Shown in pieces: positions 16,455 to 60,530 of a DNA stretch of 64,000 nucleotides; the first letter of the stretch is position 1, and each line of letters begins with the position of its first letter. This stretch comes from Pomphorhynchus laevis. Its lineage: Eukaryota > Acanthocephala > Palaeacanthocephala > Echinorhynchida > Pomphorhynchidae. The notes below the pieces were generated by a model. It worked only from the letters and a program-made list of their open reading frames with translations. It made no database searches and was not told the origin of the DNA. The translations under genes and the position numbers were made by a program. The DNA lies in the NCBI GenBank assembly GCA_012934845.2, contig WNNJ02001055.1, forward strand, positions 104,684-168,683, given 5' to 3'.

Positions 16455-17660
16455 ATGAGTAAATTTAGCATGTCGGAGCGTTCAAAGAACTCAATGAAAA
16501 CTAATTTTCCTGCCAATGCAATAAACGAGGTAAGTGGAGATTTAGGTTCTCTTGAATATATTCCGGAGGGTGAACTTCCCCCGGTACCAAAATTATCCAA
16601 CCTGGTGATTATCAGACTTTTGGTGCCTCTGGAAAGGCAGAACATGTTCAATGTTTTTATAAGAGGCTTTGCTCATCGATTTAAAAAAAGGATATTGTTC
16701 AATGCGATTAAATATTATGAATCTGAGATTAAAATATCATTCTGCACTCCTGATCTCGCAATGTCGTACGTAGACTACTTTAAAAAAGAGCATTCGGAAC
16801 AAGGCATAATTGCTTCCAAACCAATCCTGGCAACAATAAAGATAAATAATATGCCCACATACATTTCAGAAGAAGATATATCAGCCCTAGAAACTGATTA
16901 CAAAATCTCTAACGTGCGCTTTATAAAAGGGATTAAAGGCTTCCCCATTCCCGTTGCGTTCTGCAATGCCCCGGTTGATGAAGCTCAAAAACTATCGATT
17001 TCAACATGCAATCCTTTTATGGGGTATAATTTGAGATTTTCAATAATCGAAACCGACTCACTAACGTACCCTCACTGCAACAATTGTCATCAGTGGGGGC
17101 ATTGGTCCACTGGATGTTCTTTACCACATAAGTGCGGCGTGTGTGGTACAACTGCTATACATCCTGAGAAGTGCGAAAGTAAGCCATTTTGCGCAAACTG
17201 CGGTGGTGAGCACCCCGCATGGTCAAAAAAATGTAAAATCTTTAAGGCGTACCAAAAGAGACACAGGGGTGTAACAGCAAAACCGACTAGCTTCGTGGAA
17301 GCTGTATCGTCTAACAAGAATGACGACAGGATGCCGGACACAGAAATTCTTAAACTTATTGAAATGCAGCATCAGGCATCAATGATTCAACTTGAAAAAT
17401 TGGTCCAAAAATTGGTGGGTCAATTAGCGGAATCCTTCCGTTCTCCTCCTTCTGGGAAGACCAACAATATTAAGAAGCCACCAAAATCTAAGAAACGGAA
17501 CGGGTCAGCGCTAAGCATAGCCGCTCTGAAGCTTGCTCGGAAGGATTCGATTTGGGCTCTGGCTAACGAGGGAAATGAAGATATCGCCCGTGGGCAAGCG
17601 ACTCCATTTGTCGTGACGGGAAGCGGTAAAGGCGACTTTTCCGCCTCTAGTTGCGACTAG
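16455..17660 (+). CDS. ORF1 protein (Gag-like, zinc knuckles)
   Basis: The protein has 401 residues and binds element RNA in the ribonucleoprotein. Residues of about 130-205 form the RNA-recognition-like central region seen in Jockey-type Gag proteins (GIKGFPIPVAF). Three CCHC-like knuckles follow at about 205-262: C-x2-C-x4-H-x4-C in CNNCHQWGHWSTGC, then CGVC, then CANCGGEHPAWSKKC. The last of these has the HPAW-x-K-C spacing typical of insect LINE Gags. The C-terminal part is basic (PPKSKKRN). The ATG at 16455 is the first in frame, and the next ORF starts 34 nt after the stop. Confidence 0.9.
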   Translation: MSKFSMSERSKNSMKTNFPANAINEVSGDLGSLEYIPEGELPPVPKLSNLVIIRLLVPLERQNMFNVFIRGFAHRFKKRILFNAIKYYESEIKISFCTPDLAMSYVDYFKKEHSEQGIIASKPILATIKINNMPTYISEEDISALETDYKISNVRFIKGIKGFPIPVAFCNAPVDEAQKLSISTCNPFMGYNLRFSIIETDSLTYPHCNNCHQWGHWSTGCSLPHKCGVCGTTAIHPEKCESKPFCANCGGEHPAWSKKCKIFKAYQKRHRGVTAKPTSFVEAVSSNKNDDRMPDTEILKLIEMQHQASMIQLEKLVQKLVGQLAESFRSPPSGKTNNIKKPPKSKKRNGSALSIAALKLARKDSIWALANEGNEDIARGQATPFVVTGSGKGDFSASSCD

Positions 17661-17694
17661 GTGGAGGGCGTCCCACTTCGGTAACACTTACGCA

Positions 17695-20154
17695 ATGGGA
17701 AGTAATCAAGGACCTTTTTCACTGAATATCCTTCAGTGGAATTCGGGAGGTGCTTCCGCCCTTAGCCTTCTATCTGGTAGAGATGCAGATGTTATAGTCC
17801 TTCAGGAGACGCGGTCTATCCGTCTCCCCCAGGATATTACTCGATTTATCCCTAAGCACATATACACCCACTTTACTCCTTACATAACCCCCCCTCACTC
17901 CTCTTCATCACAAGGTCTTTTAACCCTAGTAAAAAGCTCCTTAAGATCATCCCTCCTATTAAACTACTCTTGTCCAGCCCTATCTTGTTTAGCTATATCA
18001 CTTTGTAAGAACGGTAAGCGTATAAGCATAGCCAATGTCTATATTCGGCCAGGAGAAATTCACAAAAACCGTGACCTCCTGGATCAAATATTGGGGAGCG
18101 GTTATGACATGTTACTTGGTGACTTCAACGACAGAACTGGTCGTTGGATTAATGCAGCACTCCGCAGAGCAAGGATCGACTATCTTATTCATAAACCACC
18201 TTCCCCAACCTTTCATTGCTCTACAACAAATTCTCTCCTCGACATATTACTGCTACATAAGATGTGGTTGTTGAAACCCATTTGCACCGAGCAGTCGCGT
18301 CAACAACAGACCACCTCTCATGACCTAATTCGCTGGCGGCTAGAGGACGATACGTTGCTTAGAAGAAGGTTTCACTTTGATCCTATTAGAGTGGCCTTCT
18401 TTCAGGCAGCTATCCAACTCTTCCCCAGAATTGGAATTGAGAGTTTGACCGAATTTAATTCCTACCTCTCATCGCAAGCTACCGCGATCCTTTCGACTAC
18501 CTATAAAGGTCGAATATACAATCCTACTCCAACAAAGCTCAAGGTCCTAGCTAAAATGTTGCACCTTCCCAATCTCTCTGTTTCCGCCAGACATATCCTC
18601 TCGAATGAATATTGGAGCTCTAGATATAGGCTCCAGCTGAGCAGGGATAGGGCAAGCATTGCTCACCAAAACCCTTCTCAGGCTTCCTTCTGGAAGATAT
18701 TCAAGAAGGAGAAATTTGTTTGCTGGAAGGATAGAGCCTTGGTTTGGATTGGTAGCATAGGCCTTGACAAAGTTTTAGAGGAGTCACTTTCCTTACACAA
18801 TTATGGAGCCACTCATTCTCCCCAACCAATCCCGCCTTGGTGTGACTTCAGGAGTAGGGATTTGTCTGTTACAGATATCCTTAACTCCTGGGGACCACTC
18901 CCGGGCACCTCCAAATCCCACGCGCCACTCACCACTCGTGTCTGTCAGCTTTTGACATACAGTCAGAGAAAGGAGGTCGCCATCACAATGCTATTAGCCT
19001 CCCCGTCTGACATAGCGGAAATCAACATCAGCCGTCGAGTTTTTTTACCTAAAAAGAGATTAATCACTTGTCCTAAAGATCTGCGGCCCATCTCGATTCA
19101 AAACGCCCTCATATCCATCTACGAGAAAGCGCTTGCGCGTAGAATCCGCGTTCATTTATGTAGGCGTAATTTGATTCCACCGAGTTTTCATGGGTTTGTC
19201 AAAGGGCGCTCGGTCCATTCAGCAATTGGTGAAGTGCATCAGTTTTGTCAGGATAATAGTCATCAGCTTGCTGTGGCTGTTTTTCTTGATTTTTCAGCTG
19301 CATTTGACCGGATCTCCATTCCCTTCGTTATCTCCTCTCTCAGGTCCCTCGGGTTGCCTGCGAGAATTGTTAACAGGGTGGAGATATTGTTGTACACCAA
19401 GCGGTTCTACTATGAAGACGACCCTGATGCGCGTCAGTTCTACCCTATTACAGGTGTACCTCAAGGATCCCCACTTTCTCCTATCTTATATCTTGCTGCA
19501 TCCATTGTATTATTCAAGAATTTTAAACGTGATCAACATCTAGTGGTATATGCTGATGATACCACAGCCTTGTTCTCTGGACGCAGGTGCAAAGATGTAA
19601 TCTCTGACATCAGCCGTTTCTTTTTAAGATTAAAAGATCAGTTGCCCCCATCCAATCTTATTTTAAACTCCTCTAAATCACAGGTGGTTGTCTTTAATGG
19701 CGTTCCTGCCACCAAAAAGAAACTTAAGAGACTAGCACTCTCTACACTCTCCTCCATTTTGCAGCATCAACCACTCCCCATCTTCACGAGTCGAGTAAAA
19801 TATCTGGGGTTCACCGTTACGGTGAATTGGTCGGCGAAAGCTGACCTGGATAGACTTAAACGTATCCTGAAGAAAGCTAGGTGGGCTCTGAAACGGGCCC
19901 AGCATCTGTCATTGAATGGGATAACCCAAGTGCGCCTCTGGGGTACTTGGGCTATCTCGGGATTAGTCTTCTTCTCACGAGGACGTCCCCCAGAACAAAG
20001 ACTAAGGTTTCTCAAGCTCCTCATCTCGAGATTACCAACCATAGTCCGCCTTGACTGGACTCTTAGGTGTGTGAGAGACCCCGAATGGTTCAGTCAGAGG
20101 ACGGCGCGCTGGTGCGGCCGAGGGGCTCAGATCCCTCTGGACCTGAGGCCGTGA
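17695..20154 (+). CDS. ORF2 protein: AP endonuclease plus reverse transcriptase
   Basis: The protein has 819 residues. The N-terminal endonuclease nicks the target. It shows LQWNSGG, LQET (Glu near residue 38), NVYIRPG, LLGDFND near 140-146 and a TSHD motif. The reverse transcriptase begins near residue 450 with LRPISIQN. It continues with GFVKGRS, FLDFSAAFD (motif A, about 530), GVPQGSPLSP (motif B), YADD at 619-622 (motif C), LNSSKSQV and RVKYLGF. All catalytic aspartates are present. The protein ends soon after the thumb, with no RNase H. It is shorter than the roughly 900 residues usual for Jockey ORF2. Confidence 0.92.
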   Translation: MGSNQGPFSLNILQWNSGGASALSLLSGRDADVIVLQETRSIRLPQDITRFIPKHIYTHFTPYITPPHSSSSQGLLTLVKSSLRSSLLLNYSCPALSCLAISLCKNGKRISIANVYIRPGEIHKNRDLLDQILGSGYDMLLGDFNDRTGRWINAALRRARIDYLIHKPPSPTFHCSTTNSLLDILLLHKMWLLKPICTEQSRQQQTTSHDLIRWRLEDDTLLRRRFHFDPIRVAFFQAAIQLFPRIGIESLTEFNSYLSSQATAILSTTYKGRIYNPTPTKLKVLAKMLHLPNLSVSARHILSNEYWSSRYRLQLSRDRASIAHQNPSQASFWKIFKKEKFVCWKDRALVWIGSIGLDKVLEESLSLHNYGATHSPQPIPPWCDFRSRDLSVTDILNSWGPLPGTSKSHAPLTTRVCQLLTYSQRKEVAITMLLASPSDIAEINISRRVFLPKKRLITCPKDLRPISIQNALISIYEKALARRIRVHLCRRNLIPPSFHGFVKGRSVHSAIGEVHQFCQDNSHQLAVAVFLDFSAAFDRISIPFVISSLRSLGLPARIVNRVEILLYTKRFYYEDDPDARQFYPITGVPQGSPLSPILYLAASIVLFKNFKRDQHLVVYADDTTALFSGRRCKDVISDISRFFLRLKDQLPPSNLILNSSKSQVVVFNGVPATKKKLKRLALSTLSSILQHQPLPIFTSRVKYLGFTVTVNWSAKADLDRLKRILKKARWALKRAQHLSLNGITQVRLWGTWAISGLVFFSRGRPPEQRLRFLKLLISRLPTIVRLDWTLRCVRDPEWFSQRTARWCGRGAQIPLDLRP

Positions 20155-21965: not shown

Positions 21966-22240
21966 ACAATATATAAATCAACAAAATTTTATTAAAAATA
22001 TATTTAAACTATTAAGCGAATTTTTTTATGGATTATAAAAAATGGACAATATGTTTTGTATTAGACAATACAATTTTTTATGGACAATATGTTTTTTATT
22101 AGAATAAGATACCTGATAACCAAATTTTATCTGACGAAATACATCATTTGCATGTACTCCGCTGTTATGTCGGGTCGAGGAATAGGGGTCCGAAATCTGA
22201 TAACATGATGATTCCTACTGATGACCTGTAACCTTGATTC
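21966..22240 (+). mobile_element. Naiad-like PLE 3' end, inverted to its neighbour
   Basis: Plus-strand C-terminal tail codons, then the family's 3' UTR hairpin (about 22155-22215). With 20985-21965 it forms a head-to-head inverted pair. Confidence 0.7.
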
Positions 22241-44260: not shown

Positions 44261-44638
44261 TTTCAATAGTATTATCTTTATCTCGTAGTTTCCGATGTTG
44301 TAGGACATCTTTTTACCTGATAATCGACTTGATCCTAAATTCCATTAATATTTGCCTTCATTTTGCTCGTTATAGCTTGTTTGTTACAACCCCCGACAGT
44401 GGTCACGATTCAATGTTCAAATCTGTATAAATACCTTATATAAATACCTTTTCGATCCAACATAGCAGCGGGGCCAAATGCATGCTAATGACGTATTTCC
44501 TCTGATGAAATTTAATTATCTAGTATATTATTCTAATACAAAGTATATTATTTATTATCCATCCATAAACATTTCCCGCTTAAGATTTCAAATTGATTTT
44601 TAATAATATTTTGTTGATTTATATATTGTAAATTTTAT

Positions 44639-44750
44639 GTAAAACATGTAAGCCAAACGCGAAAGAATGACGAATCCCGTTTCGTCATCACAATGACTCA
44701 TCAGTGCCAGATCCCTCCCACTACTGGATTCAGAAGAGGACTGGCATTTA
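44639..44750 (-). mobile_element. 112 bp insertion carrying a hammerhead ribozyme
   Basis: TGTAAATTTTAT is present at 44627-44638 and again at 44751-44762. The paralogous site near 1720-1760 has a single copy, so this is a true insertion with a 12 bp target duplication. The insert has no coding capacity and no poly(A). Its minus strand contains the ribozyme at 44669-44746. It looks like a small non-autonomous retroelement. Confidence 0.8.
44669..44746 (-). ncRNA. hammerhead ribozyme, permuted at its cleavage site
   Basis: Minus strand, 78 nt, in order. Stem I is TGCCAG with CTGGCA, extended by CCTC/GAGG beyond a small internal loop. The core box is CTGATGA. Stem II is GTCA-TTGTGA-TGAC. Then come the GAAA box, stem III (ACG-GGATT-CGT) and the cleavage triplet GTC at the very end. 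Every invariant core base is present. The downstream bases (ATTCTTTC) do not pair with the 5' strand of stem I. The unit therefore begins with the base that would follow GTC in a tandem or circular transcript. Confidence 0.85.
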
Positions 44751-45975
44751 TGTAAATTTTATATTTTAATGATATTTTGTTAATTTATACTTCTTCGTAT
44801 AAATTATAGTAAAGCAATTTAAAATATGCATCTATTTAATTAATTGAATGATTTTAAAGAAAGTCAATATCCTTACATATTATGGGCAATTCTTAAAATG
44901 TCATTATTTAATCAACTAAATTTAATATTATATGGTATGCATCAATGTTCATGTAAAAATACATTTCATTTAAATTTAAATATGTCGTCGTTTAGATAAA
45001 TTAATAATAGTTTTAATTAATGTAAAGTTAATGTTCATATCTAGGTAAATAAATTTTTGTCATCAATATTAGTATTATTAGGAATTAAAATATCTGGATA
45101 AATTTGTTTACTTATGGAATACAATTATAAGAGTTAAATCCACATATGGTAATGTTTTATAACCTAAAACATTACCATTTGATTGATCAAAATATTTAAG
45201 GATTCTATTTATATAATTTTATCCTTATATTTATATTTATTTGATGGTTTAATTTTTGTTAGATATGCGCTATAGTTATTATAACATATGTGTGTATACT
45301 TTTCCAAAAAAGGTCAATGTATTTATATTTTACTATTTTCTGTTTGATTTTGTTTTTAGTAACCAAGTATAAAATATATATAAAATATTTAAATGATTTT
45401 GAAGAAAGCCAATATCATTACATATTGTTGCAATTCTTAAAATTTCATTATTTAATGTATTATATTTTATATTATATGGTATGCATGAATGCATTCATTT
45501 ATAGAATATTTTTAAATAATTTTGATTCATCAAAATATTTAAGGCTTCTACAAATTCAATTTTATCCTCACATTTATATTTACTACTGGTTTAATTTTGT
45601 TAGATAGGCGTTATAGTTGTTATAAAATATATATGTATATCTATTTTCGAAAATATAATTAATTAATTTTTCTAACGCTGTTTTAATATCTACCAAATCT
45701 AGATTTGTTTAAAGCGTACTAAAATCGTATTTATTTATATTTTAAAAATTTATTGCTTTTGTCTGTTCTAAAAATTCTTTTGTAGAATTAATACTAAAAT
45801 AGTGTTTTATACCAGTATTAATTTCGATTACTTCACAATATTTTTAAAGTATGCTTTAATTACTTTAAGTATTTTATTCATATAAACATAACGTGGTTTT
45901 AATGTACATTTAAAAGAACAATTTGAACCTGGATTTTATTGGATTTTTATGTAATTTTGGATTTCAATATAATAT

Positions 45976-46880
45976 AGGTATAGACAAATAAAAGGTGTTC
46001 CAATGGGAGGTAATAGTAGCCCAATTATAGCTGACTTATTTTTAAGTTTTATAGAATATGATTTTGTTCATAACTGTTTAAAAAATAAATCTAAATTATA
46101 TAAAGATATGAAATATATGTTTCGATACATTGATGATAAATGTGTATTTAACTCTAATAATTTTTATTCAATAAGTTAACAAATTTATTAATGTAGACTT
46201 ATTCTTAATAAAACCAATATTAATGATAAAGAAGGTATATATCTAGATATGAACATTAAATTAACATCAATTAAAACTACTTTTTATTTATATCGTAAAG
46301 ATGACATATTTAAATTTACAAGAAACATTGAAAAAGGCGAAAGAAAATATTATTAAAACTAAATTTAAACTCTTAAATGGCAGATTTTTATGGATGGATA
46401 ATAAATAATATACTTTGTATTAGAATAGGATACAAGATAATCAAATTTCACCTCAGGAAATACGTCATTAGCACGAATTGCCCCCTGCTATGTTGTGTTG
46501 AGGAATAGGGGTCTAAATCTGATAGCATAGCAATTCCTTCTAATGACCTATATTCCTTATTCTGATACAAAGTATGTTATTTATTAGCCAATTCATAAAA
46601 ATTAATGTTTTATTTTAAATTTCAATTTTTTATTTTAACTTGATTTAAATTATAGAAAATCTAAAAACAATTATTAATTTTATTATTTAATTATTAAATT
46701 TTGATTCATTGATTTAGCATTATTTTTATTTATTTTTATAATTTTATAATTATATTAAATACGTGGACTCAGTTAGTAGATTTAATTTATTATCGGATTT
46801 TATCTTTACATTATTTTTAGCCGTTATAGCTAAGTGACTTGTAATAATTGTTTCCTGTAAGATTAATCCATCATGTCACC
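45976..46880 (+). mobile_element. Naiad-like PLE, 3' half, head-to-head with the previous copy
   Basis: The plus strand begins RQ-KGVPMGGNSSPIIADLF, then FIEYDFVHN, MFRYIDDK and the DKEGIYLDMNIK tail. An internal deletion removes part of the C-terminus. The 3' hairpin (46485-46535) and ACGTGGACTC (46762-46771) follow. From about 46785 a short minus-sense piece matches the linker at 57060-57150. Confidence 0.75.
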
Positions 46881-56857: not shown

Positions 56858-57625
56858 TTAGAACTTTTCCATTGCTCTGTCTGTATACACAGAGCAATGC
56901 TTGCAATATTTTTTGAAGTGTGCTTTAATTACTTTAAGTATTTTATTCATATAGACAGAAAGTGGTTTTAATGTACATTTAAACGCACTACATATGAACC
57001 TAGGTTTTATTGGATTTTTATGTAATTTTGGATTCCAATATAATATAGGTATAGTTTTATTATCTGATTCAACCTTTATACCCTTTTCATCCATTATAGA
57101 ACAGTGACTTGTAATAATTGTTTCTAAACTCAACTCGCTACGTTCATATGTTGGATTTACATTTAAATCATTAGAATTAACCTATTTCATTAGTATATCA
57201 TAATAAAGCTTTTTGCATATGAAGACAAAGTTATTACTAGCTTTATCAATAGTTGTTATTATATAGTTATCCTTTAATTTAGTAAGTTCTTTATACATAT
57301 CTTTATTAATTTTATCTTTCCTTTTATAATTGTTTGTTATTTTCATTTTATTTTTAATTTTATCAAATATATAATATTTCCAAATTTTTATCTTAGATAT
57401 ATTCGAGCTTTCACTATTAATCAGCCTCCTAAAGTAATCATTTAAGTTATTATATAACGAACTGTAAATTTTATTTTTGTCGTTGTTGTTATTTAATCTA
57501 TATTTATACCCTTTCGATAGCAGCTTTCTTAATTCACAATTTTCAATTAATTCTAGATTATGGGTACATATATGTTCATTTATTTTATCAAAACTAAGAC
57601 TTTTACAATTGCATTCTGTTTCCAT
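56858..57625 (-). pseudogene. PLE linker and start of reverse transcriptase
   Basis: It contains CNCKSLSFDKINEHICTHN, ENCELRKLLSKGYKYR, TTIDKASNNFVFICKKLYY (equivalent to the DKG motif of PLEs) and then IPILYWNPKLHKNPIKPRF, RT motif 1-2 with the K-PRF block. It has a frame break at 57133-57182. Motifs A to C of the RT are missing. Confidence 0.75.
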
Positions 57626-58194
57626 TGTTTCTAATATTATCGTTACATATTGATTTCAATTCTTTATTATAATTACAAATTTTTCGTTCCAATTGCGCTA
57701 ACAACTTATACCTTATTTTAGGAATATATTTGCTTAAATCTGACCCTATTATTTCTTTACTTTTAGAATTATTTAAAAGTCCGGCTATATTTATGTTATC
57801 TATACATTTATTAATGAAGTTTATGATTAATGTATATTTTCTATTGTTATTATTTACATTTATTGTATGATTATAGTATTTTGTATTACAATAACTGTCT
57901 ATTATACAACTTAGCCTATCATAGTCGTTAATTAATTTTTGATTTATTGAACATATGATATCTTTAGAAAAACTTCTTATATTTACATAAAGATCTTTTA
58001 GCTTATTATCTCTTAAAAATTGTTTTAATATTTCTAATTTTTTATATTTATACATACATTTTTTCTATTTTTAACTCTATTTTTCTTATCCCTTTTATCA
58101 CCATGATTTCTTGGCTTGCGTTTAACCGGATTATTATGATATAGTTGTTTATTATGTACTAAACTACTTCTGCCAATTCCTTGTACCACGTCAT
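57603..58194 (-). pseudogene. PLE linker between GIY-YIG and RT
   Basis: It continues the GIY-YIG reading after a single-base shift (LYPSGLND, then KRKPRNHGDKRDKKN). It then has the Asn/Lys-rich stretch 58055-57603 with IINFINKCIDNINIAGLL. Such a helical linker occurs in this position in Naiad-type elements. Confidence 0.6.
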
Positions 58195-58600
58195 TCAATC
58201 CTGATGGGTACATAAAATTAAGCGTTTAATCCAAAAATCTTCTTTTTTTAATAGTTTTTGATTTAATATTGATATGTTTTCTTCGATAATATGTTCTAAA
58301 ATAAATAATTTACAGTTTTTAATATTATGATTTATTAATCTCATATGTTTATGAAATATAGTTTGACTATTATGCTGTATATTATATATGTGTTGCCTAA
58401 ACCTAGTTTTTAACATTTGATATGTTTTTCCTATATATTGCAATCCACATGTACATTGTATTAGATACACTACACCTGCGGTATTGCAGTTACAATTATT
58501 ATTAATATTTAATGAAAAACATTTGTTTGTCGTATTACTTACAATACAATTATTATTTATAACATCACAAACTATACAATTTTTCTGTTACATTTAAAAG
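58195..58600 (-). pseudogene. GIY-YIG endonuclease domain of the PLE
   Basis: The reading runs from NCIVCDVIN through a Cys-rich stretch (NCNCN) to GVVYLIQCTCGLQYIGKTYQ. R-x3-H follows (TRFRQHIYN), then FHKHMRLINHN and an EENISILNQKLLKKEDFWI glutamate region. The GIY and YIG motifs appear as VVY and YIG, and Arg and His are present. It would nick the target for insertion. It ends in a frameshift that hides LYPSGLND. Confidence 0.8.
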
Positions 58601-58679
58601 ATCTAAAATTGAAATCATTAGTACTTACGTATTTTTCCAATATGGTTGAGTACATGTAACTTTTAAGTCATAATTTTTA

Positions 58680-58910
58680 ACGTTGCTTTTTCGGTGTCAC
58701 CACCTAGTTTAGTTGACTCAGACTAAACTTCCAACGGGCCGTCCAGCAGCATCTGATAGTGGGCTGCCCTGCTTAAGGCGGTTGCAGGCTGGAACAAGAT
58801 CTATAAAGATCTACCACCTTCACTCCACGCGCTACGCGACCTAGCTATTGGCCATTACCTGGTCTCTTAAACGTGATCACGTGAAGCAGTTTACATTTTA
58901 AAGTGTAAAC
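58680..58910 (-). other. GC-rich, hairpin-dense leader of the PLE
   Basis: This is a 230 bp island of clearly higher GC content in an AT-rich element. Inverted repeats are AGTTTAG/CTAAACT (58706-58729), AGATCTATAAAGATCT (58797-58812), ACGTGATCACGT (58871-58882) and GTTTACA/TGTAAAC (58889-58910). It lies between the leader start and the GIY-YIG coding region. It could be a structured 5' UTR or an unrelated insertion. Confidence 0.6.
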
Positions 58911-59117
58911 ACCTTGAGATGCAAACTTCTCTTTTTTTAAGAATCAATAATTCATCAAACTTGTTTGAAAATAAGAAAAAATAATAGTAAAGTCGTAACC
59001 AATAATACATAGTTTCAGTATTTCTGGCAGAGGTCATATTATCGGGAAAACAAAGTCCACAGGTCAATAATAACATGTCAGTAGAACAAATTAAATCACC
59101 TATCGAGTCTACGTATT

Positions 59118-60530
59118 TAATATAATTATAAAATAAACAAAACATAATAATGATAAATCAAAATTTAATAATTAAATAATAAAATTAATAATTGTTTTTA
59201 GATTTTCTATAATTTAAATCAAGTTAAAATAAAAAATTGAAATTTAAAATAAACGTCATTTTTATGAATTGACTAATAAATAACAGACGTTGTATCAGAA
59301 TAAGAATTAGAGGTCATCAGGAGGAACTGCTTATGCTATCAGGTTTCGGCCCCTAACTCTTCTACCCAACATAGCAGCGTGGCCAAATACATGCTAATGA
59401 TGTATTTCCTCTGATAAAACTATCTAGTATCTTATTCTAATACAAAGTATATTATTTATTATCCATCCATAAAAATTTAGCACTCGAGAGTTTAAATTTA
59501 TTCTTTATATTATTATGTTGATTTATATATTTTACTATTTTCTGCTTGATGTTATTTTTATAGTAACCTAGTTTAAAATATGTATCTATTAAATTATTTA
59601 AATGATTTTAAAGAAAGCCAATATCATTACATATTGTTGCAATTCTTAAGATTTCATTATTTAATGTATTATATTTTATATTATATGGTATGCATGAATG
59701 CTCATGCAAAAATATGTTTCTTGTAAATTTAAATATGTCATCTTTACGATATAAATTAATAGTAGTTTTAGTTAATGTTAATTTTAATGTTCATATATTG
59801 ATATACACCTTCTTTATCATTAATATTGGTTTTGTTAAGAATAAGGCTTTCTGGATAAATTTGTTCACTAATTGAATAAAAATTATTAGAATTAAATACA
59901 CATATATCATCAATGTATCGAAACATATATTTCATATATTTATATTGTTTAGATTTAGTTTTTACACAGTTATGAACAAATTCATATTCTATAAAGCTTA
60001 AAAACAAGTCAGCTATAATTGGGCTACTATTACCACCCATTGAAACACCTTTTACTTGTCTAAATATAGATGTCCCTACTTTTAAATAATTTTGATTTAT
60101 CAAAATATTTAAGGATTCTATTAATTCAATTTTATCCATATATTTATATTTACTTGATGGCTTAATTTTTGTTAGATAGGCGTTATAATTATTATAACAT
60201 ATATATGTATATCTTTTTCCGAATATAAGATTAATTAATTTTACTAACGCTTCTTTAATATCTACTAAATCTAGATTTGTATAAAGCGTACTAAAATCGT
60301 ATGTATTTATATTTTGAAAATTTATTCCTTTTGTCTGTTCTAAAAATTCTTGTAGAATAAATACTGAAATAGTGTTTTATACCAGTATTAATTTCAATTA
60401 ACTTGCAATATTTTTTAATGTTTGTTTAATTACTTTAAGTATTTTATTCATATAAACAGAAAGTGGTTTTAATGTACATTTAAACGCACTGCATATGAAC
60501 CTAGGTTTATTGGATTTTTATGTAACTATG
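59118..60530 (-). mobile_element. Naiad-like PLE, 3' half
   Basis: Minus strand: RT motif A region (60240-60330), then an open frame 60139-59768 with GVSMGGNSSPIIADLFLSF (motif B) and FRYIDDICVF (motif C). The C-terminal tail to LWMDNK, the hairpin (59325-59390) and ACGTAGACTC (about 59106-59115) follow. It is 5'-truncated before the RT. It is followed head-to-tail by the GIY-YIG copy. Confidence 0.85.
59768..60139 (-). pseudogene. PLE reverse transcriptase core fragment
   Basis: The longest uninterrupted RT stretch of the family here (123 codons). It contains motif B with GG-SSPI-AD and motif C FRYIDD, with both catalytic aspartates kept. A stop or shift follows after DKEGVYQYMNIK. Confidence 0.8.

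Follow-up and report, generated by a model that had tools for sequence, protein, structure and literature searches.

The 112-bp insert at positions 44639-44750 of the window, the 64,000-nt stretch of Pomphorhynchus laevis DNA analysed here, belongs to the non-coding element RZ1, which has a tandem unit of 304 bp and carries a type III hammerhead, as judged from the layout of its conserved segments. RZ1 is probably a non-autonomous retrozyme whose copies are made by a Penelope-type enzyme on RNA that the ribozyme has cut. In the available part of PMC7229834, the mover of animal retrozymes is an open question for which Penelope-like elements are no more than a candidate, their enzymes being put forward there as a proposal. 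The accessible text of PMC11167929 leaves unclear what the hammerhead does during such insertions and finds no role for it in vitro, where ribozyme mutants had no effect on insertion. RZ1 supplies natural insertions with 5' ends at the ribozyme cut more often than at any other position and with 3' ends that display the two-site signature of Penelope, and it puts a type III hammerhead into an abundant animal retrozyme.

The window insert is bounded exactly on both sides by TGTAAATTTTAT, a 12-bp target-site duplication with copies at 44627-44638 and 44751-44762, as the original prediction had stated. Between the right copy and the element lie four extra bases (44747-44750, TAAA on the minus strand) that are probably an untemplated addition; the insert then begins, as had been proposed, at the ribozyme cleavage position. 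Counting unit position 1 as the first base 3' of the cut, the RZ1 copy occupies 44639-44746 on the minus strand (unit positions 108 to 1). It comprises, all on that strand, the helix I hairpin, which starts at the 5' end of the cleavage product (44705-44746, unit 1-42), the catalytic core CTGATGA (44698-44704, unit 43-49), the helix II hairpin (44684-44697, unit 50-63), and GAA followed by the 3' strand of helix III (44675-44683, unit 64-72). The latter strand reads ACGGGA, compared with ACGGCA in the family consensus, and its 5' partner TGCCGT is missing: the copy starts at the TGCCAG base after the four extra bases, and helix III therefore has no upstream half.

The prediction of a minus-strand hammerhead thus stands for helix I, CTGATGA, helix II and GAAA, but not for the assigned stem III and GTC. 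The GTC that had been taken as the cleavage site (44671-44669, unit 76-78) is located within a separate minus-strand hairpin (44666-44689, about unit 58-81), which is predicted when the upstream strand is left out of the fold (unit ~58-66 pairing with 73-81) and which may block re-ligation. The cleavage GTC of intact copies lies upstream of TGCCAG and is lacking in the window copy. The sequence previously described as an unexplained tail (ATTCTTTCGCG...) belongs to the element and extends to a 3' end that we refer to as A. On the minus strand, 44639-44664 corresponds to the start of a putative copying-initiation region up to A, delimited by the 3' ends of the family and named by analogy with the part of PMC11167929 available; it contains the 5' strand of a CGCGT/ACGCG stem (44657-44664). 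If the model as a whole is right, as we consider likely, the insert would be a one-armed product that began at A, reached the cut and gained four bases.

The host sequence on the minus strand is a decayed copy of a Penelope-like element (44457-44638, resuming at 44804-45147). A related stretch near 1.70-1.77 kb of the window, read by eye, has no insert, in agreement with the empty paralogous site noted originally. Both neighbourhoods match the Penelope-like element at ~80-86%, and thus the insert sits in an old copy. The Rfam model RF00008 matched the window copy weakly and in another register (25.6 bits, with a gathering score of 48.5); a model built from RZ1 relatives scored it at 72.6 bits, as for a relative.

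A genome search with the insert listed at least 50 matches, so it is not unique, and intact relatives were found in tandem arrays with a 304-bp unit; the suggestion of a mobile ribozyme element of the retrozyme sort is supported. Altogether 31 monomers were extracted from tandem relatives, 15 of them exactly 304 bp long, and the array at L010 holds about 11 units (3,333 bp) with no coding unit inside. In the 249-Mb genome (3,242 contigs), searches that allowed up to two mismatches for the catalytic core and up to one for the cleavage junction gave 1,901 and 508 occurrences, respectively, and 0 for the reversed-pattern control of either. RZ1 therefore fits a short non-coding tandem unit with a hammerhead, dispersed through an animal genome; an animal source is indicated by four matches to the TGF-beta domain and none to the chlorophyll-binding one. 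It is not itself a Penelope-like element, since 304 bp is too short for an open reading frame (ORF) encoding reverse transcriptase and GIY-YIG endonuclease, and it may act through such an ORF supplied elsewhere.

Hammerheads share the conserved core CTGANGA...GAA and are cleaved after NUH. RZ1 relatives read ...GCCGTC^TGCCAG...CTGATGA...GAAACGGC, and intact units have the form ATTGATTGCCGTC^TGCCAG...CTGGCACTGATGAGTCATTGTGATGACGAAACGGCA, with GTC^, CTGATGA and GAAA all in place. Helix III is formed by TGCCGT with ACGGCA, helix II by GTCAT with ATGAC, and helix I is a long capped hairpin; the predicted fold of the ribozyme segment returns all three. Helix III is open while helices I and II are closed by loops, a layout that by its sequence is that of a type III hammerhead cut directly upstream of TGCCAG, and not that of a type I ribozyme with every stem closed. 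From the conservation of the ribozyme and its fold, the RNA is predicted to cut itself at GCCGUC^UGCC. Searches with Rfam gave no hammerhead match on the RZ1 loci L013, L088 and L103 at E up to 0.5, and none at the gathering score on L009 and L013; the RF00008 gathering score was not reached by the RZ1 copies tested.

The ribozyme is better conserved than the rest of the unit. Comparison with RZ1b, a diverged subfamily represented by 18 aligned pieces (11 loci), showed a change at 1 of 79 positions in the ribozyme versus 38 of 225 elsewhere (Fisher p = 1.2e-4), or 30 of 217 when eight deleted positions are left out (p = 9e-4). The sole ribozyme change turns a G-C pair of helix III into G-U. 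One whole RZ1 unit folds at z = -6.4. In a structure alignment of 16 sequences, which left out L102 (chimeric), L097 and L016, five helix pairs carried changes in both partners, compared with a mean of 3.0 after shuffling; 3 of 500 shuffles reached that number. Three of these pairs lie outside the ribozyme and for the most part distinguish one subfamily from the other, and hence count as few events; the remaining two were found in one sequence each. Paired cells amounted to 96.7% versus a shuffled mean of 95.0% in the same alignment, and further pair types did not exceed the shuffles (450 of 500 as high).

No single position serves as a 5' end in RZ1 more often than the cut, which accounts for 28 of 108 segment 5' ends at L001-L033 and L078-L117, inner junctions included; L003, which is near-identical to L002, was dropped from all counts. 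The other 80 ends are mostly scattered. Loci were picked for containing unit 1-50 or most of 1-112, so that 5' ends at 2-50 are under-sampled, and the choice favours copies close to the window insert; among the 82 5' ends lying at 1 or beyond 50, position 1 again contributes 28. Against an expectation of 1 in 255 this corresponds to p about 2e-46 under the assumption of independent ends, and the 5' and 3' ends include inner junctions and hence are not all independent. In the three batches of loci, 9 of 26 one-armed insertions begin at position 1 (L001, L006, L007, L029, L104, L107, L109, L113 and L129). Four of these (L001, L006, L104 and L113) have target duplications of 9-12 bp by the tight-boundary test, that of L006 overlapping the first element bases. 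Twenty-nine arms span position 1-4 to one of the two 3' sites described below, 19 as a single pass and 10 with one or two further units; no weight was given to arm lengths in whole unit multiples, which aligning to a tandem consensus produces by construction.

The 3' ends are concentrated at two internal sites about 36 nt apart, near the CGCGT/ACGCG stem: site A (~110) with 31 of 103 ends at 108-119, and site B (~146) with 47 of 103 at 136-153. None of the 103 lies at position 304 and one lies at 299. Family ends thus often coincide with the cut on the 5' side but not on the 3' side, and the unit is not the whole cleaved monomer of the original prediction, its 3' end being the internal site A. 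No poly(A) tract was noticed at A or B ends. RZ1b ends at about 97 and 141, and one U-G pair of the CGCGT/ACGCG stem is C-G there.

When two-armed, head-to-head insertions with both outer ends resolved were considered (n = 37), 25 paired A with B, one was B/B (L021, which has a left flank in common with L115) and none was A/A. A/B thus makes up 25 of the 26 with both ends at A or B. The other 11 have at least one end elsewhere: nine with one B, one with one A and one with neither. Insertions cut by or near locus ends were excluded from these and from the duplication counts. Local-alignment end positions carry an error of a few bases, more in diverged copies, and the A window was set at 105-119 for copies of at least 90% identity and at 91-119 for diverged ones. 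The B window was 133-153, its lower bound fixed after L130 (133) had been seen. Six of the 25 A/B assignments depend on these windows, namely L088, L090, L100, L103 and L124 on the wider A and L130 on the B bound. Among the 20 two-armed insertions with a duplication of at least 9 bp by the tight test, 16 were A/B, three had B and another end, and one had neither.

The A/B rule was set down in advance of the third batch. This batch added two two-armed insertions with duplications of at least 9 bp: L122, which is A/B at 110 and 144, and L124, which has B and an end at 97 that can be accommodated solely as the diverged subfamily's A end. The remaining two-armed insertions of the batch are L130, an A/B case with B at 133, and L121, L126, L127 and L131, each with one end elsewhere. 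The second part of the prediction fared less well, one of five one-armed insertions (L129) starting at position 1. As a separate observation, eight two-armed insertions (L008, L024, L026, L030, L031, L105, L126 and L131) have one B end and another arm that stops short of A, at 23-83, and in such insertions erosion seems commoner on the A side than on the B side.

Target duplications recur in the family. With tight boundaries, 23 of 51 insertions had a duplication of at least 9 bp, versus 14 of 997 mismatched flank pairs, in which the two flanks came from different insertions. With the third batch included, this applied to 25 of 63 resolved insertions, with a mode of 12 bp, and 38 of the 63 showed none of that length. 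A wider search found at least 11 bp in 30 of 63 versus 21 of 619 mismatched pairs; it is noisier, with 112 of the 619 control pairs reaching 9 bp. It adds duplications of 12-13 bp in L088, L090, L100, L103, L127 and L130, diverged copies in which the tight test had missed them because the alignment had shortened their ends. In L127 the duplication lies 43 bases past the painted end, and its end counted as elsewhere is probably an A end.

These features resemble the chemistry of a purified Penelope-like protein, Poseidon of Anolis. According to the portion of PMC11167929 available, it cuts and extends both strands at AT-rich DNA and initiates at two neighbouring positions within the RNA that correspond to an optional genomic tail of 30-40 bp. 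RZ1 has such an optional tail in the spacing of its A and B ends, and shares with Poseidon the two internal start sites, the use of both strands, the AT-rich targets and the tandem copies; in contrast to Poseidon, it has no ORF. Since its ends match internal starts and the priming of both strands in vitro, Penelope-type copying appears to be the best reading by analogy, and the Penelope link made in the original prediction agrees with this insertion signature. The start sites are reported as the same for both strands, and an A/B rule per insertion is not given in the accessible text. The Anolis hammerhead is described as having parts of the canonical structure only, and no RNA-seq reads began or ended at its cut, which was not seen setting insertion ends in that text.

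Under the preferred model, RZ1 would be transcribed and its RNA would cut itself at GCCGUC^UGCC, perhaps with circular RNA also being formed. A Penelope-type reverse transcriptase/endonuclease, presumably from another element, would make staggered cuts, about 12 bp apart, in the two strands of AT-rich DNA. Copying would initiate within the RNA, at site A on one side and at site B on the other, and would run off at the 5' end made by the ribozyme or read through uncut junctions to yield tandem units. Two arms might then unite head to head, or one arm might join the other target end directly. A broader claim would make Penelope-type insertion obligately two-sided, with the target strands primed at A and B and the ribozyme cut setting the copy ends, so that RZ1 records the process and shows the mover of animal retrozymes; we regard the case for it as evenly balanced.

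The autonomous partner was sought among 32 Penelope-like loci (L034-L065), none of which shares sequence with RZ1 or matches the type III model at E up to 1; at least 75 other GIY-YIG matches were listed in the genome. The absence of RZ1 from these loci also speaks against the reading of RZ1 as the pseudo-LTR of an unseen Penelope-like element, with the window copy as a solo or partial pseudo-LTR rather than an independent retrozyme. The two-site tail, inverted arms and tandem order are indeed traits of Penelope-like elements in the part of PMC11167929 available, but the array of about 11 units at L010 runs on without a coding unit, and we find this reading unlikely.

A LINE-type enzyme working by target-primed reverse transcription from the RNA 3' end has a possible source within the window, where a LINE with endonuclease and reverse transcriptase lies at 17617-20154. 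Such an enzyme is very unlikely to move RZ1: the 3' ends are internal, without noticeable poly(A), and come in A/B pairs facing both ways, on which grounds we reject priming at the RNA 3' end. The same internal 3' sites lead us to reject the original model, in which a complete monomer, cleaved or circular, was copied into DNA with both ends at the cleavage site. It accounts for the 5' ends at the cut, but is contradicted by the 3' ends, and the GTC on which it was built is not the cleavage site; we give it hardly any credence. Equally improbable in our view is a satellite DNA spread by recombination, with DNA breaks setting the ends: tandem arrays and the copies without a clear target duplication would suit it, whereas the 12-bp duplications, the fixed 3' sites and the 5' ends at the cleavage site would not.

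Placed among known retrozymes, RZ1 resembles the animal non-LTR retrozymes in its size, in having a hammerhead per unit, tandem copies and no LTR features, and in the length of its target duplications. The available part of PMC7229834 describes these retrozymes as RNAs of ~170-400 nt whose target duplications exceed the 4 bp typical of plants. Their hammerheads are of type I, in contrast to the type III hammerhead and two-site end signature of RZ1. RZ1 does not have the type I ribozyme and is therefore a variant rather than a standard animal non-LTR retrozyme. With plant LTR retrozymes it shares the type III hammerhead and the non-autonomous state; as far as the accessible parts of PMC7229834 and PMC7761336 go, these are ~700 bp long with LTRs and 4-bp duplications, compared with 304 bp and ~12-bp duplications in RZ1. 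The available text of PMC7761336 assigns type III hammerheads mostly to plants and viroid-like RNAs and refers to type III-bearing elements of bacteria or insects. Atypical animal type III motifs are reported, in the part of PMC7936874 available, from toad and termite delta-like RNAs and from termite and fly genomes. Like RZ1, they have a long helix I with an additional hairpin as its cap, but the termite-genome motifs are isolated, whereas RZ1 is an abundant mobile family. In the accessible portions of the open-access literature, neither a type III hammerhead nor the two-site signature was found in any animal retrozyme.

The genome also contains an abundant Penelope-like element with a 908-aa ORF, in which an N-terminal GIY-YIG was seen by eye only, and a tandem unit of 3,517 bp (L064 and L065; window 56900-60525). 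At least 150 matches were listed, many equal in score. It was rejected as the partner of RZ1, as its loci share no sequence with it, and neither L064 nor L065 showed a hammerhead. Few target duplications could be resolved around its copies, 2 of 17 tests giving at least 9 bp. Just 3' of its ORF we noted a motif of ~85 nt with interlocked helices and a hairpin, the helices GGCCCC/GGGGCC, CTGCTATG/CATAGCAG and GAGGA/TCCTC following the order 1-2-3-1'-2'-3'. Copies are present in the window at 59414-59304, 21310-21199, 761-656, 46455-46552, 61602-61496, 22130-22231 and 30920-30824. Pairing is kept in 714 of 762 cells, a count made with no shuffled control, with some compensatory changes, and the motif may represent a structured RNA that has gone unrecognised, in an element that showed no hammerhead.

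A second hammerhead repeat, of canonical type I and with a 296-bp tandem unit, was observed at L066-L077. It matches RZ1 at the core only, and several of its copies abut (TA)n stretches with their ends near position 110-120. Yet another repeat with a type I hammerhead was found at L041 (3060-3440, in an inverted arrangement) and L069 (937-1017).
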